From Agromyces archimandritae (GTDB taxonomy: Bacteria; Actinomycetota; Actinomycetes; Actinomycetales; Microbacteriaceae): a DNA stretch of 64,000 nucleotides. The notes under the pieces were generated by a model. It saw nothing but the letters and a program-made list of their open reading frames with translations, did not search any database and was not told the origin of the DNA. Positions 13,221-50,320 of the stretch are shown piece by piece. Position 1 is the first letter of the stretch; each line of letters starts with the position of its first letter. The stretch covers positions 1,116,001-1,180,000 of the forward strand of contig NZ_CP071696.1 of assembly GCF_018024495.1 (NCBI RefSeq). The letters run 5' to 3'. Both the position numbers and the translations under genes were made by a program.

Positions 13221-13813
13221 GCCTCCAGCCTAGGCGCTCACATGCCCACGTCGCCGCGCGTCCCGTCCGCACGCCGCCGGGCACAGGAGTGCCGTTGGGG
13301 AGGCGCGAAGAGCGACGCGCCGCGGCGCAGGAGTGCCGATTTCCCGCTGGAGTGCCGGAATGTCGGCACTCCCGCGGGAGATCGGCACTCCAAGGGCGCG
13401 CCGTCCGGGAGATCGGCACTCCCACGGGAGATCGGCACTCCAAGGGCGCGCTACGCGGGAGATCGGCACTCCAAGGGCGCGCCGTCCGAGAGATCGGCAC
13501 TCCGGTGGGAGACCAGCACTCCAAGGGCGCGCTGTCCGGGAGATCGGCACTCCAAGGGCGCGCTGCGCGAGAGATTCGTATTCCGACGGGAGACCGGGAC
13601 TCCTGAGGTGCGCCATTCGGCAGACGCCCGATCCGGCGAGAAACGGGCACTCCTCGCGGTGCGTCGGGTCTGGCGAGAGCGCTGCCGCGCCGCGCCGGCG
13701 CGCTGGCCCCACGAAGGAGGTCGACCCTCCCTATGGAGCACGGGAGTCCGCGCCCCTCTCACGGGAGAGCCGACCTCCAACGTGGACACGGGGCGCAGCC
13801 CGGGGACGACGAC
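13221..13813. other. Gene-free region holding a palindromic repeat array
   Basis: No gene is supported between the copper-cluster start and the nuclease terminator. Open frames here are simple readings of the repeats in several frames. The region holds one 62-bp palindrome (13330-13391) extended into a lattice of GGCACTCC boxes to 13653. After that comes about 160 bp of unremarkable GC-rich sequence that must contain any promoter of the nuclease-side transcript end or copper genes; no clear -10/-35 was seen. Confidence 0.7.
13330..13653. repeat. 62-bp palindrome extended into a 19/31-bp modular array
   Basis: Octamer boxes GGAGTGCC at 13330 and 13349 face GGCACTCC boxes at 13365 and 13384, giving a symmetric 62-bp element. 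Further boxes follow at 13415, 13434, 13465, 13496, 13515, 13546, 13577, 13596, 13627 and 13646; those at 13577, 13596 and 13627 (and 13515 by one base) are degenerate but in register. Steps are only 19 or 31 bp. The short module is a CGGGAGATC-type spacer plus the box; the long one adds AAGGGCGCGC. Confidence 0.88.
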
Positions 13814-34132: not shown

Positions 34133-34202
34133 TTCCGGGGGTCGAATCCTGCCATCCTGAAGCGGAAAACCGCATGCGCGTGGCAGGAAATGACCCCCGC
34201 AA
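34133..34202. repeat. 70-bp palindromic element, copy 1
   Basis: Begins TTCCGGGGGTCGAATCCTGCCA and is mirrored by TGGCAGGAAATGACCCCCGC. The right end is somewhat degenerate. A central AGCGG / CCGC inner stem is kept. Intergenic. Confidence 0.82.
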
Positions 34203-34307: not shown

Positions 34308-34377
34308 TTCCGGGGGTCGTTTCCTGCCATTTTCAGGCGGAGCTCCGCGTGAAGGTGGCAGGAAACGACCCCGGGAA
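34308..34377. repeat. 70-bp palindromic element, copy 2
   Basis: Outer arms TTCCGGGGGTCGTTTCCTG and CAGGAAACGACCCCGGGAA with one mismatch across 22 bp; inner stem around GGCGGAGCTCCGC. Both arms share GTTTCC where copy 1 and copy 3 have GAATCC/GGATCC, a compensatory change. Confidence 0.88.
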
Positions 34378-45454: not shown

Positions 45455-46362
45455 CCGTGCGCGAGGGCATCCACTCGGGGGTGGATGCCCCGAGCCCCCG
45501 AACCGTTCGCACGCCCCGTGCCCGGCCGCGCCGTTCGGCCCGCAAGACGCGCACCGCGGCCGGCAAGGCCGTGCTCGTCGTGCTGCTGCTGGCCTTCACC
45601 CTGTTCCCCGCGTTCTGGATGCTCTCGAGCGCGTTCGACGCACAGGCCGGCCGCGGCGGGCAGACGCTGCTGCCCCGCGAATGGTCGCTCGCGAACTTGG
45701 CATACGTCATCACCGACGGCGGCTTCGGCCTGTTCCTCAGGAACTCCGCGCTCGTCGCCGTCGTCGTCGTGCTCGCCTCCGCCGTGCTCGCCCTGCTCGC
45801 CTCGGTCGCCGTCGCACGCTTCCGCTTCAGCTTCCGCACCACGATCCTCCTCATGATCCTCGTCGTGCAGATGGTGCCGCTCGAAGCGCTCGTCATCCCC
45901 CTGTTCGTGCAAGTGCGCGACCTGCAACTGCTGAACACGCTGCTCGGGCTCATGATCGTCTACGTCGCCCTCTCGCTGCCGTTCGGCATCTGGATGCTGC
46001 GCGGCTTCGTCGCCGCCGTGCCCGTCGAACTCGAAGAAGCCGCCTACCTCGACGGAGCAAGCTGGAGCCGCATGTTCCGCTCGGTGCTGCTGCCGCTCGT
46101 CATGCCCGGGCTCGTGGCGACCTCCGTGTTCTCCTTCATCACCGCCTGGAACGAGTTCATCTTCGCCATGACGCTGCTCGGCGGCGCCACCGAGAACTAC
46201 ACCGTCGCCATCGGCCTGAAGCAGTTCTTCGGCGAGCACAGCAACGAATGGGGCTACATCATGGCCGCCTCCACGCTCATCACCGTGCCCGTGATGATCT
46301 TCTTCGTCATCGTGCAGCGCCGCCTGTCGAGCGGCCTCGTCGCCGGGGCCGTGAAGGGATGA
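45451..46362 (+). CDS. Sugar ABC transporter permease 2
   Basis: MalG-type permease, 303 residues, six helices. EAA loop EAAYLDGASWSRMFRSVLLP and FITAWNEFIFA are diagnostic. GTG at 45451 overlaps the preceding stop by four bases. The first 45 residues (including GVDAPSP from a GTGGATGCC copy) are a poorly conserved Arg-rich leader. Its stop overlaps the GH3 start (ATGA). Confidence 0.92.
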   Translation: MTVREGIHSGVDAPSPRTVRTPRARPRRSARKTRTAAGKAVLVVLLLAFTLFPAFWMLSSAFDAQAGRGGQTLLPREWSLANLAYVITDGGFGLFLRNSALVAVVVVLASAVLALLASVAVARFRFSFRTTILLMILVVQMVPLEALVIPLFVQVRDLQLLNTLLGLMIVYVALSLPFGIWMLRGFVAAVPVELEEAAYLDGASWSRMFRSVLLPLVMPGLVATSVFSFITAWNEFIFAMTLLGGATENYTVAIGLKQFFGEHSNEWGYIMAASTLITVPVMIFFVIVQRRLSSGLVAGAVKG

Positions 46363-48633
46363 GCCGGGCCGATCTCGAGCTCGCGAACCGCGTGCTCTGG
46401 CCGGGCGTGCTCGGGGTGTGGATGCCGGGGCGCGATGCCGGCGGAGGGCGCGGTGTCGGCGGGCGCGGTGCCGGCCGGCGCGGTGCCGGCGGGAGCGGTG
46501 CCGGCGGGCGCGGTGCCGGCCGGAGCGGTGCCGGCGGGAGCGGTGCCGGCCGCGGCGCCGACGGGAGCGGTGCCGGCCGCGGTGCCGGCGGGAGCGGTGC
46601 CGCGGCTCACGAGTGGATGCCGGGGCGCGGCCTCGACCGACCCGGCATGCCCGCCTGGCTCGGCCGCGAGGGGGCTCGCGGTCTGGCGGGAGTCGTGCTC
46701 TTCGGGCACAACCTCCCGGACGCCGGCCGGACCCTGCCCGCCGACGAAGGGGGCGACCGGGGTCCGGCCGGCATCGAAGCTTCCGGGGGTCGGATCCTGC
46801 CACATTCGGGCGGAACCGCCCGGGAACGTGGCAGGATTCGACCCCCGGAACGGAGTGGAGCGCGCGCGGCGGGCGCGGGCGGGGCGGGGCGGGGCGCACC
46901 GGCATCCACTGCTCATCGGGATCGACGAAGAGGGCGGCAACGTCACCCGCCTCGAAGCGGACGGCGGATCCACCCTGCCCGGAGCCCTGCAGCTCGGCAC
47001 CGTCGACGACCCGGAGCTCACCCGGTCCGTCGCGCGCGAACTCGGGCGGCGGGCGGCATCCATCGGCGCCAACGTCGTCGCCGCCCCCGTCGCCGACGTC
47101 AACACGAACCCGCTGAACCCCGTCATCGGCCCGCGCGCCTTCGGCGCCGACCCCGAACTCGTCGCCCGGCACGTCGCCGCCGCCGTGCGCGGATTCCTCG
47201 ACGCCGGCGTCGCCCCCTGCGTCAAGCACTTCCCCGGCCACGGCGACACCGTCACCGACTCGCACCTCGGGCTGCCCGTCGCGGGCGGGCGGCTCGCCGA
47301 CCACCTGCTGCCGTTCCGTGCCGCGGTGGATGCCGGGGCGCCGGCGATCATGACCGGCCACCTCGTCGTGCCCGACTGGGGCGAGGAACCCGCGACGCTG
47401 AATCCGCGCGCCCTCGCCGAACTGCGCACCCTCGGCTTCGACGGGGTGATCGTCAGCGACGCGCTCGACATGGCCGCCGTGCGCTCCCGGTACGGGGCGG
47501 GCGGCGCCGCCGTGCGGGCGCTGCTGGCCGGCTGCGATCTGCTGTGCATCGGGAACCCGGGGCTCGGCGGCGGGCCCGGGGGCATGGTTGCGCCCGACGA
47601 GGCGGATTTCCTCGAGGTCCGGGATGCCGTGGTCGCCGCCCTGGAAGACGGCACCCTGCCGCGCGCGCTCGTCGAGCGCGCCGCCGACCGTGTCGCCGCA
47701 CTCGCGGAGCGCTTCGGCGGCGATCGAGGGGCGGCGCCCCGCCCGAGTTCGGAGTGCCGACCTCCCGCGGGAGTACCGACTTCCCGGCACTCCGACGGGA
47801 AATCGGCACTCCTAGATGGCGAGCCCACCGACGGCGCGGCGCCCCGCCCGAGCCAGGAGTGCCGATCTCCCGCGGGAGTGCCGACCTCCCGGCACTCCGA
47901 CGGGAAACCGGCACTTCTCGGGGGCGAGCCCACCGACGGCGCGGCGCCCCGCCCGAGCCAGGAGTGCCGATCTCCCGCGGGAGTACCGACTTCCCGGCAC
48001 TCCGACGGGAAACCGGCACTTCTCGGGGGCGAGCCCACCGGCGGTACGGCGCCCCGCCCGACCCAGGAGTGCCGACCTCCCGCGGGAGTGCCGACCTCCC
48101 GGCACTCCGACGGGAAACCGGCACTCCTGCGGGGTGCGGGCGGGGTGGAGCCCGCACCCGGAGCGCGGGCGGATGCCGGGGCGGGCGACGCAGCAGGGGC
48201 GGGCGACGAACCGTGGGCGGGCGTCGCGCGGGCGGCGGCGAGCGCCGACGGGCGGGCGCCGGCGGTGCCTGCACCCCGCACGGTGATCGACGTGCGGCCG
48301 GCACCGACCATCGCGGTGGATGCCCGGGCGGAGACGGTTCCGCGCCTGATCGCCGAGGGCGGGGCGCTCGTTCGCGCCTCGGATGCGGGCGGGGCCGCCG
48401 TTGCCGCCCGGGATGCGGCGGGCGCGCCGGTCGTCGTCGTGGACCGGCTCGCCGACCCGGCGCAGCGTGCCGCCCTCGCGGCGGTCGCGGCGGTGCGCCC
48501 GGATGCCGTCGCCGTCGACCTCGGAGTGCCCGCCGGTGATCCACCGCTGATTCCGGTGCTGCACGTGCGGGCGGCCAGCCGCCTCGCGGCCGAGACGGCA
48601 GCGGGGATGCTCGCGGAAGGGTTCGGCGAATGA
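46359..48633 (+). CDS. nagZ: NagZ-like GH3 beta-N-acetylglucosaminidase, frame broken by a 70-bp palindrome
   Basis: The ATG at 46359 overlaps the permease stop and opens a GH3 N terminus (MPAWLGREGARGLAGVVLFGHN) in one frame. The rest (IGIDEEGGNVTRLEA, KHFPGHGDTVTDSH with the NagZ Asp/His catalytic pair, VSDALDM with the nucleophile Asp, and a C-terminal GH3 domain) continues in the +1 frame to 48633. The frame change falls at a 70-bp palindrome (46781-46850); deleting exactly those 70 bp joins the two parts into one open frame through HRHPLLIGIDEEGG. Three oddities: a Gly/Ala repeat insert bounded by 17-bp direct repeats (46418-46629), the 70-bp element, and four 105-bp in-frame repeats (47751-48128). 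Without correction, a shorter frame from 46435 keeps the catalytic motifs but lacks the first barrel strand. Predicted role is release of GlcNAc from muropeptides. The stop overlaps anmK. Confidence 0.8.
46418..46629 (+). repeat. Gly/Ala-coding repeat between 17-bp direct repeats
   Basis: The sequence GTGGATGCCGGGGCGCG occurs at 46418-46434 and again at 46613-46629. Between them lies a 15-bp-type tandem repeat (GCGGTGCCGGCGGGA and variants). The repeat starts are 195 bp apart, a multiple of three, so the insert keeps frame. Confidence 0.85.
46781..46850. repeat. 70-bp palindromic element, copy 3 (inside GH3)
   Basis: Arms 46781-46803 and 46828-46850, 23 bp each with one mismatch (starting TTCCGGGGGTCG, ending CGACCCCCGGAA); inner stem CGGGCGG / CCGCCCG. 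The same length as the two intergenic copies. No target duplication is evident at the edges. Confidence 0.92.
47751..48127. repeat. Four 62-bp palindromes in 105-bp tandem units (inside GH3)
   Basis: Palindromes at 47751-47812, 47856-47917, 47961-48022 and 48066-48127, each with GGAGTGCC-type boxes at offsets 0 and 19 and GGCACTCC-type boxes at 35 and 54, the same geometry as 13330-13391. A 43-bp coding spacer separates them; the 105-bp period is 35 codons. Confidence 0.92.
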
Positions 48634-50320
48634 GGGTGCTCTCGCTGCAGTCCGGGACGTCGGCGGATGCGATCGACGTCGCCGTCGTCGAGTTCGCCGT
48701 GCGTCACCCGTCACCGGGTGTCACCGCATCCGACGACGCCGCACGACCCGCACGCCGCGATGGACGCGATCCCGAACGCGTCGCCGACCCCGAGGCGCGC
48801 GCCAGGGCATCCACCGCCGCATACGACCTCGCAGCCGTCACCGACCGAAGGCGCGACCCCGAAGCCGGCGACCCCGAACGCGTCGCCGCCGCCGGAGCGC
48901 GCGCCGCGGCATCCACACCCGGAATCGTGCTCGAGCTCACGCCCGTCGCGACCCGCGAGGTCGCGTGGGAGCCGGGGCTCCGGCGCGACATCCTGCAGGC
49001 GGCCGCAGGGCTGCCGATGGATGCCGGCGCCTGGTGCCGCCTCGACACGCGACTCGGGCGGGCGTTCGCGGCGGCCGCGGCCGAAGTGCTCGCCGAGGCG
49101 CCGGCGGAGCTCGTCGTGTCGCACGGGCAGACGGTGTTCCACTGGGCCGAGCCCGACGGCCGGCGCGGCAGCCGGGCGCGCGGCACGCTGCAGCTCGGCG
49201 AGCCGGCGTGGATCGCCGAACGCACCGGGCTGCCGGTGGTCTCGCATGTGCGGGCGGCCGATATCGCCGCCGGCGGCGAAGGGGCGCCGCTGATGGGCGT
49301 GTTCGACCGGTTGTGGCTGGCCCCGCTCGCGCGGGCGGCGGGGCGGCCGGTCGCGACGGTGAACCTCGGCGGCATCGCGAACGTGCAGATCGTGGATGCC
49401 GCAGGCGGCGTGCTCGCCTTCGACACCGGCCCCGGCAACGGGCTCATCGATGCGGCCGTCGGGCGGGCGGCGGGCCTTCCGTATGATGTCGACGGGCGGT
49501 TCGCGGCGGCCGGGCGCATCGACGAGGAACTGCTCGGTGCACTGCTCGCGCATCCGTATTTCGCGGCGGCGCCGCCGAAGACGACCGGGCGGGAGACCTT
49601 CGACCTCGCCGTAGTGGATGCCGCGGTCGCCGCCGCGCACGGCGCCCTGACCGAGGTGCCGACCGCCGACCTCGCCGCGACGCTCACCGAGCTCACGGCG
49701 CGCACCGTCGTCGACGCCGTCGCGGCCGCGCGCCCGGGCGTGGGCGACGCGGGCGCGAGCGCGACCGCCGTCGAACCCGGCGAGGCACCGCCACGGATTC
49801 GGAGATCGCCACCGAATCGGATGGATGCCGCCGATTCCATCCGAATCCGTGGCGATCTCCGACATGGCGGCGCGGAAGTAGGGCGTGCGGGCAGGGCGAG
49901 CGCACGCGAGGACGCGGGTGGGGGCGCACGGACGGGCAGGGCGAGGAGTCCGCGGGCGGGCCGGGCGGCGCGGGCGGTGCGAGTGCCACCGAGCTGCTGT
50001 GCTCCGGCGGGGGTGCGCGCAACCCGGTGCTCATGGAGCGGATCGCGGCGCATGCGGCGCGCCGGGGCATCCGCACCCGGTCGACGGCGGAACTCGGCAT
50101 CGACCCGGGCGCGAAGGAGTCGCTGCTGTTCGCCCTCATCGGCTTCTGCACCTGGCACGGGGTTCCCCTAGCGATCGGGCCGACGCCGGCGCGCATCGCC
50201 GGCCGCATCACGCCCGCACCGGGCCGGCCGTTGCGGATGCCGGAACCGCTGCCCGGGATCGCCTCGCTCGAGGTCGCCGACGCGGCAGCCCCGGCCGCAG
50301 CCGCATCTGCCGCGAGCTGA
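48630..50320 (+). CDS. anmK: Anhydro-N-acetylmuramic acid kinase, frame broken by a 62-bp palindrome
   Basis: AnmK converts anhydro-MurNAc to MurNAc-6-P. Motifs in the first frame: SGTSADAIDVAVVEF (start), SHGQTVFHW, LQLGEPAWIAERTGLPVV, NLGGIANV, FDTGPGNGLIDA. The ending needed for substrate binding (ELLCSGGGARNPVLMERI, then STAELGIDPGAKESLLFALIGF) lies in a frame shifted by two. A 62-bp palindrome at 49800-49861 lies between; deleting exactly 62 bp gives one open frame to 50320. Unedited, the first frame stops at 50171 with a meaningless tail. A low-complexity insert (about 48711-48925) with a duplicated PERVA block separates the first strand from the rest. Its start overlaps the GH3 stop. 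Confidence 0.82.
49800..49861. repeat. 62-bp palindrome inside anmK
   Basis: Arms 49800-49825 and 49836-49861 (26 bp, two mismatches), beginning CGGAGATCGCCAC and ending GTGGCGATCTCCG, with loop TGCCGCCGAT. A second, offset inverted repeat CCACGGATTCGGA / TCCGAATCCGTGG (49791 and 49840) overlaps it. Sequence unrelated to the other two palindrome types. Confidence 0.9.

Follow-up and report, generated by a model that had tools for sequence, protein, structure and literature searches.

The nagZ gene of the actinobacterium Agromyces archimandritae carries a copy of a 70-bp palindromic repeat that is dispersed over the chromosome, and the two halves of the gene lie in different reading frames. 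The account that we consider probable is that this REPIN- or MITE-like repeat, designated family 1, landed in a variable loop of nagZ and that the pair formed by nagZ and its neighbour anmK has decayed. NagZ and AnmK are presumably both enzymes of muropeptide recycling. The genome consists of one contig of 3,453,307 bp and is 99.8% complete; the whole stretch of DNA analysed, hereafter the window, covers 64,000 nucleotides (1116001–1180000), and feature coordinates refer to the window unless a genome position is given.

The near-perfect palindrome at 46781–46850 (forward strand), identified by arm match, genome search, fold and copy alignment, is real. Its inverted arms (46781–46807 and 46824–46850) are 27 nt each, 93% complementary and 16 nt apart, and the predicted RNA fold reaches a minimum free energy of −63.3 kcal/mol, whereas shuffled versions average −29.8 (z −10.5) and 0 of 200 of them fold as well. 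Positions 46781 and 46850 are also the repeat ends common to the family 1 copies. The core pattern of the family occurs three times in the window, the nagZ copy included, against 0.00 expected; the second and third copies, at 34133–34202 and 34308–34377 (both forward), were recovered by genome search and core pattern and are intergenic according to a coding HMM. A scan of the whole window recorded seven long hairpins, three of them in nagZ and one in anmK. Rfam at gathering thresholds gave no match between 33500 and 48500.

The original prediction, that the GH3 N terminus and the catalytic part read in different frames, is borne out. The 5' part of nagZ (MSRADLELANRVLWPG...VVLFGHNL; 46359–46715, forward) starts with the ATG at 46359 and shows the motif order of orthologs; the GH3 (NagZ-like) catalytic part occupies the second frame at 46903–47727 (forward; PF00933, E 1.2e-56; 46910–47723 by the coding HMM). 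Between the end of the N-terminal part at 46715 and the GIDEEGG motif at 46918 there are 202 nt, which leave remainder 1 on division by three. The 5' piece 46359–46781 gives no Pfam match on its own, and no stop codon interrupts either half. Two repeat arrays enlarge the gene: a minisatellite with a 15-bp unit in 11.9 copies (46428–46602, forward; repeat analysis), which goes with a WPG to LFxxN interval of 100 aa as compared with 25–26 aa in all 19 orthologs, and 3.8 tandem 105-bp units of repeat family 2 (47731–48134, forward), in frame with equal frame on both sides, which go with a GIDEEGG-to-stop distance of 571 aa, as compared with 413–484 in the 18 orthologs that have a stop. The minisatellite itself holds possible starts for the catalytic frame, for example the ATG at 46435, from which a shortened NagZ-like protein might be made with no bypassing involved. 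This open frame (46435–48633, 732 aa) overlaps the start of anmK; however, the WPG...LFGHNL segment is absent from it, the GH3 profile is matched only from position 61 and a crude sigma-70 scan detected no promoter-like site, and such a start is improbable.

Comparison with orthologs supports the proposal that the element inserted into a once-intact gene. In all 19 nagZ orthologs fetched, one of them (L059) cut at a contig end, a single frame is kept and joins WPG..LFxxN to G[IV]DEEGG. The linker between LFxxN and IDEEGG ranges from 15 to 72 aa and measures 22 aa in 10 of the orthologs. None of the 19 linkers contains the palindrome core, and the best hairpin score among them is 11.5, as against 22.0 in the A. 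archimandritae gene, where the inserted sequence belongs to a dispersed repeat. The same loop carries in-frame tandem peptide repeats in two other Agromyces (L047 and L051) and is thus a recurrent insertion site.

Recognizable ortholog homology stops at 46715 and restarts at about 46903. Codon statistics for 46716–46780 favour the N-terminal frame by 7.5 nats over the catalytic frame and by 5.0 over non-coding DNA, an antisense frame lying slightly above the N-terminal frame (6.4). From 46781 to 46902 all six frames fall below non-coding; this interval is made up of the palindrome and a G-rich tract (46851–46902, forward), defined by composition and codon statistics, that has no coding signal in any frame and offers an alternative break site. 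As 46716–46780 prefers the N-terminal to the catalytic frame and 46781–46902 is devoid of coding signal, the break most likely falls within 46781–46902, either in the palindrome itself or as an indel in its G-rich neighbour; it may also lie just left of the palindrome. That the palindrome sits exactly at the frame break could not be confirmed, the homology gap extending over 46716–46902 and an indel in 46851–46902 being another possibility. The further idea that its length explains the frameshift is sound in its arithmetic (70 = 3×23+1, leaving remainder 1, which fits) and unproven as to cause, since the right remainder is a one-in-three event. Insertion of the element is the probable cause of the break.

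The main alternative for the nagZ frame is a sequencing or assembly indel in a G-rich tract near the palindrome, with a similar error in anmK, such that nagZ would be intact and the palindrome translated in frame. We regard it as unlikely. Followed back through the palindrome, the catalytic frame spells LPGVGSCH...VAGFDPRN, and the same peptide frame recurs in the copper ATPase discussed below (LPGAISRH...VAGFDPRN) and in the C terminus of a permease-like protein (named by eye); it is also the frame most often open across family 1, in 92 of 94 orientations. The G-rich low complexity of 46851–46902 points the same way. Against such an error stand the codon statistics at 46716–46780, where the N-terminal frame outscores the catalytic one, and an assembly that is a single contig at 99.8% completeness.

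Family 1 is widespread in the A. archimandritae chromosome. A DNA search with the palindrome returned 76 rows at 42 places, and a covariance model added eight places, which brings the genome to at least 50, a lower bound; an arm search revealed two more arm pairs besides these. The length is exactly 70 bp in 41 of 42 aligned copies and 71 bp in the remaining one. Conserved 22-bp inverted arms near TTCCGGGGGTCRNWTCCYGCCA / TGGCRGGAWNYGACCCCCGGAA enclose a hypervariable 26-bp centre. Of 107 arms, the 100 listed include 43 facing pairs, every one of them at an offset of 46 nt. Given this shared offset and the hypervariable centre, the arms appear to be constrained and the centre to be constrained only in length. 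Among the same 100 of 107 arms, six lay outside known elements; these stray arms were unpaired at 0.2–6 kb, and no autonomous element with family 1 arms was found. Direct repeats of k=2–9 showed no excess around 47 copies, so no target-site duplication was apparent, and the arms within the A. archimandritae genome alone display no covariation above shuffles; both results count against the preferred reading. Family 1 may be mobile; transposition and selection by a protein that binds the arms are equally possible routes of its spread.

Most copies lie outside genes, as judged by a home-made coding HMM on 47 of the 50 copies: convergent coding segments flank 18 of them, co-directional segments another 18 and divergent segments 11, the nagZ copy being counted in the last group since the HMM misread the nagZ 5' part as antisense. 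Copies with no flanking ORF running in number 41 of 47 by program and 40 of 47 after hand correction for nagZ, whose copy was wrongly among the 41 and absent from the six flagged with an ORF running in. The flanks of the 47 copies are skewed, with 48.5% C in the left 10 bp and 50.2% G in the right 10 bp; this bias fades over 200 bp, and the skew thus reverses locally where an element lies. A limited literature search found no published description of these Agromyces repeats.

Searched for family 1 at the plain DNA level, 39 relatives gave no match; the covariance model gave matches in at least 11 of 59 other Agromyces genomes. Fifteen copies fetched from relatives measure 70 bp (12 copies) or 69 bp (three), and their arms differ between species. 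In a set of 18 sequences, made up of these 15 and three from A. archimandritae, pairing holds for 94.2% of arm cells, 16 of 22 arm pairs carry both-sided changes against a shuffled mean of 9.7, and the between-species covariation score is 0.454 against 0.150 for shuffles; none of 500 shuffles reaches any of the five measures. Because the A. archimandritae genome alone shows no excess, support for arm symmetry comes from between-species comparison, and the covariation would fit a protein-bound inverted site and a hairpin alike. The flanks of one copy from a relative (genome G050) align in three related genomes (G018, G013 and G046) with no element between them, in a test that covered one element and five related genomes; in the other two, G053 and G047, the flanks were not usable. 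At this empty site the sequence aligned between the flanks is too ragged to show a clean target duplication. Palindrome-free sites, which the original prediction had proposed to seek in relatives, thus exist both in the 19 nagZ linkers and at the site of another copy.

Outside Agromyces, a degenerate-pattern scan of genome contigs recovered 17 stretches, 16 from Arthrobacter or Pseudarthrobacter and one from a betaproteobacterial bin, with a core length of 48–51 bp as compared with 60 in family 1. Viral contigs yielded 0 matches to one exact degenerate pattern, and no Y1 gene was present among six ORFs scanned beside the betaproteobacterial copy.

The most informative copies for the fate of the element in a message are two that lie in a copper ATPase gene of the same genome (L033:1111-3918, minus strand; 936 aa), between the SEHP and TGDN motifs. 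The frame is identical before, between and after both copies, and the outer blocks on both sides match solved copper ATPases. The SEHP to TGDN distance is 296 aa. Both motifs were found in 105 of the 120 relatives listed, where the distance is 107–125 aa, with a median 187 aa below the A. archimandritae value; element-type peptide words occur in none of the 120 listed relatives. Family 1 copies in open frames may be translated. Skipping or excising 70 nt per copy would put the copper ATPase out of frame, and excision and bypass are disfavoured because this gene stays in frame only with both copies kept.

This result bears directly on the suggestion that nagZ is expressed through removal of the 70 nt from DNA or RNA, or through ribosomal bypassing of the hairpin. 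Remainder 1 and the strong hairpin agree with it, and translational bypassing of inserts has precedents in T4 gene 60 and Magnusiomyces mitochondria, to judge from the cases outlined in PMC5009743; nagZ resembles these in that an insert breaks the frame of the gene. The difference is that other family 1 copies must remain in the message for the frame of their host gene: copies elsewhere are not skipped, as the copper ATPase frame needs both to be read. Moreover, in the hand-corrected count, 40 of 47 copies have no flanking ORF running in, the anmK break holds a different element (family 3), and neither of the last two codons before the element, GAA and GCT, recurs in the catalytic frame within 46846–46902, where the synonymous GAG (46858) and GCG (46864) are present. 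Expression of nagZ by bypass or removal is therefore unsupported and very improbable.

The state of anmK argues for a simpler account. This gene is the sole PF03702 gene found in the genome, and its profile match is split over two frames: the 5' part (48630–49786, forward; PF03702 positions 39–285; Pfam profile and coding HMM) is followed in the other frame by the 3' part (49985–50320, forward; PF03702 positions 288/289–349; Pfam profile). The profile halves are about 250 bp apart, and the frame break between them, about 200 bp long (49786–49985), holds a 64-bp palindrome (49799–49862, forward; repeat search) of family 3, a third dispersed repeat family, for which the genome gave 78 rows. Two neighbouring genes of the same pathway thus appear to be broken, with three repeat families in them. 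A family 2 palindrome is also present elsewhere in the window (13330–13391; repeat search and hairpin scan). Family 2 and 3 repeats occur inside open frames at L136, L115 and L116, including ornithine-cyclodeaminase-like and methyltransferase-like genes (Pfam) and a third gene, part of which resembles a methyltransferase (named by eye).

In 19 of 181 neighbouring segments on the same strand, an open frame was flagged as running on over the following segment; the frame was the same in 15 and different in four, a ratio biased by the fact that out-of-frame runs reach stops sooner. The four different-frame breaks were encountered in 388,569 b examined (overlaps counted); the anmK break with its family 3 copy is one of them, and the other three are free of family 1–3 repeats at the break, a frequency that also favours an indel error. 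These three (L032, L116 and L131) affect CopD-CtaG-like, FAD-monooxygenase-like and P450-like genes (by eye). Because anmK is broken too and three other breaks lack these repeats, decay or sequence error is a simpler account of nagZ than bypass or removal.

Between these two, decay appears the better reading for nagZ. Several observations count against it: neither half contains a stop, the GH3 match is strong, and the minisatellite and the family 2 array are in frame, on which grounds the gene may recently have been, or may still be, functional. Furthermore, the identity of the catalytic part to orthologs (0.643, against 0.760 among the orthologs; n=19) is only somewhat below that of a NagZ-like paralog (0.729 to its orthologs, against 0.805 among them; n=10). 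The catalytic part thus seems only somewhat more diverged than expected, and decay, if real, is therefore recent. No same-species NagZ was present among the best 120 of 8000 proteins scored, the top identity being 71%. At 2537077 of the genome there is a second NagZ-like gene, whose frame is open.

Eleven parS-like sites, nine exact and two with one mismatch (control 0), are clustered at 1.721–1.725 Mb of the genome. On the assumption that the parS motif marks the origin, the latter is placed at 1.72 Mb. Among the matches listed, with loci merged within 3 kb, the chromosome half around these sites contains 32 of the 35 loci of family 1, all 31 of family 2 and 16 of the 20 of family 3; the accompanying binomial test assumed uniform placement and ignored intergenic density. 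Clustering at the terminus was considered and rejected, as the parS-like sites put the origin mid-cluster.

REPINs are REP doublets that form hairpins, their ends lying 71 bp (GI) or 110 bp (GII) apart; in those of Pseudomonas the inverted ends are conserved and the spacer is under tighter constraint in its length than in its sequence (Bertels and Rainey 2011; PMC3116915). So described, they resemble family 1, which likewise has inverted conserved ends, a length-fixed variable spacer, compensatory changes and a dispersed, mostly extragenic distribution (PMC3116915). The inverted arms with a length-conserved spacer were found in family 1, as was dispersal mainly outside genes (home-made coding HMM, 47 of 50 copies); compensatory changes at the ends were found between species, with no excess over shuffles within the A. 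archimandritae genome. The likeness is one of anatomy. The companion RAYT (Y1 transposase) was not detected: PF01797 at E <= 0.001 matched 0 of 60 Agromyces genomes, that of A. archimandritae included, and 5 of 14 known genomes in the control. Family 1 thus differs from REPINs in a host genus with no Y1 (RAYT) found in 60 of 60 genomes, and in a host that is an actinobacterium.

REPs with no dedicated transposase have also been described, as have terminal-inverted-repeat (TIR) repeats with the motif GGGGWSAS; some copies inside genes give 'REP-decorated' proteins (PMC3733652). Family 1 shares with them the form of palindromic dimers and the presence of some copies inside genes. By eye, the GGGGWSAS motif fits most Arthrobacter-type copies (GGGGTCAC) and the betaproteobacterial copy (GGGGTCAG). 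Family 1 in A. archimandritae differs: across its 42 aligned copies the motif fits just two left arms and no right arm, and no transposase gene was found. For MITEs, neither an autonomous element with the same ends nor a target-site duplication was found. Rickettsia palindromic elements, as summarized in PMC10969869, are palindromic repeats of about 150 bp read in frame inside unrelated proteins. Family 1 resembles them in having copies in frame within a protein gene, two of which sit in the open frame of the copper ATPase; it differs, in a comparison by description, in being 70 bp long, not a multiple of three, and mostly intergenic.

The preferred reading, a landed repeat and a decayed gene pair, would run as follows. 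A 70-bp inverted-repeat family with two 22-bp arms and a centre of fixed length and free sequence would have been amplified in A. archimandritae, most copies settling between genes and a few in coding loops, where they would be translatable when the frame permits. One copy would have landed in the naturally variable nagZ loop between the VVLFxxN and IDEEGG strands. With the net frame broken, no full-length enzyme would be expected from nagZ as sequenced and, adjacent anmK being broken too, the outcome would be a decayed recycling pair, with the second NagZ-like gene open elsewhere. More tentatively, family 1 might be a REPIN-like population of fixed 70-bp length whose species-specific arms evolve in concert, which is maintained or moved by a non-Y1 enzyme, is concentrated on the origin side and is tolerated as translated loop inserts.

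In place of a striking claim, that a hairpin in a bacterial gene is bypassed or excised, the analysis puts a repeat family that can be tested. If family 1 spreads with no Y1 transposase, it would represent a second route by which bacterial hairpin repeat populations are maintained, and the in-frame copies of the copper ATPase may serve as a test case for how proteins absorb palindromic inserts.
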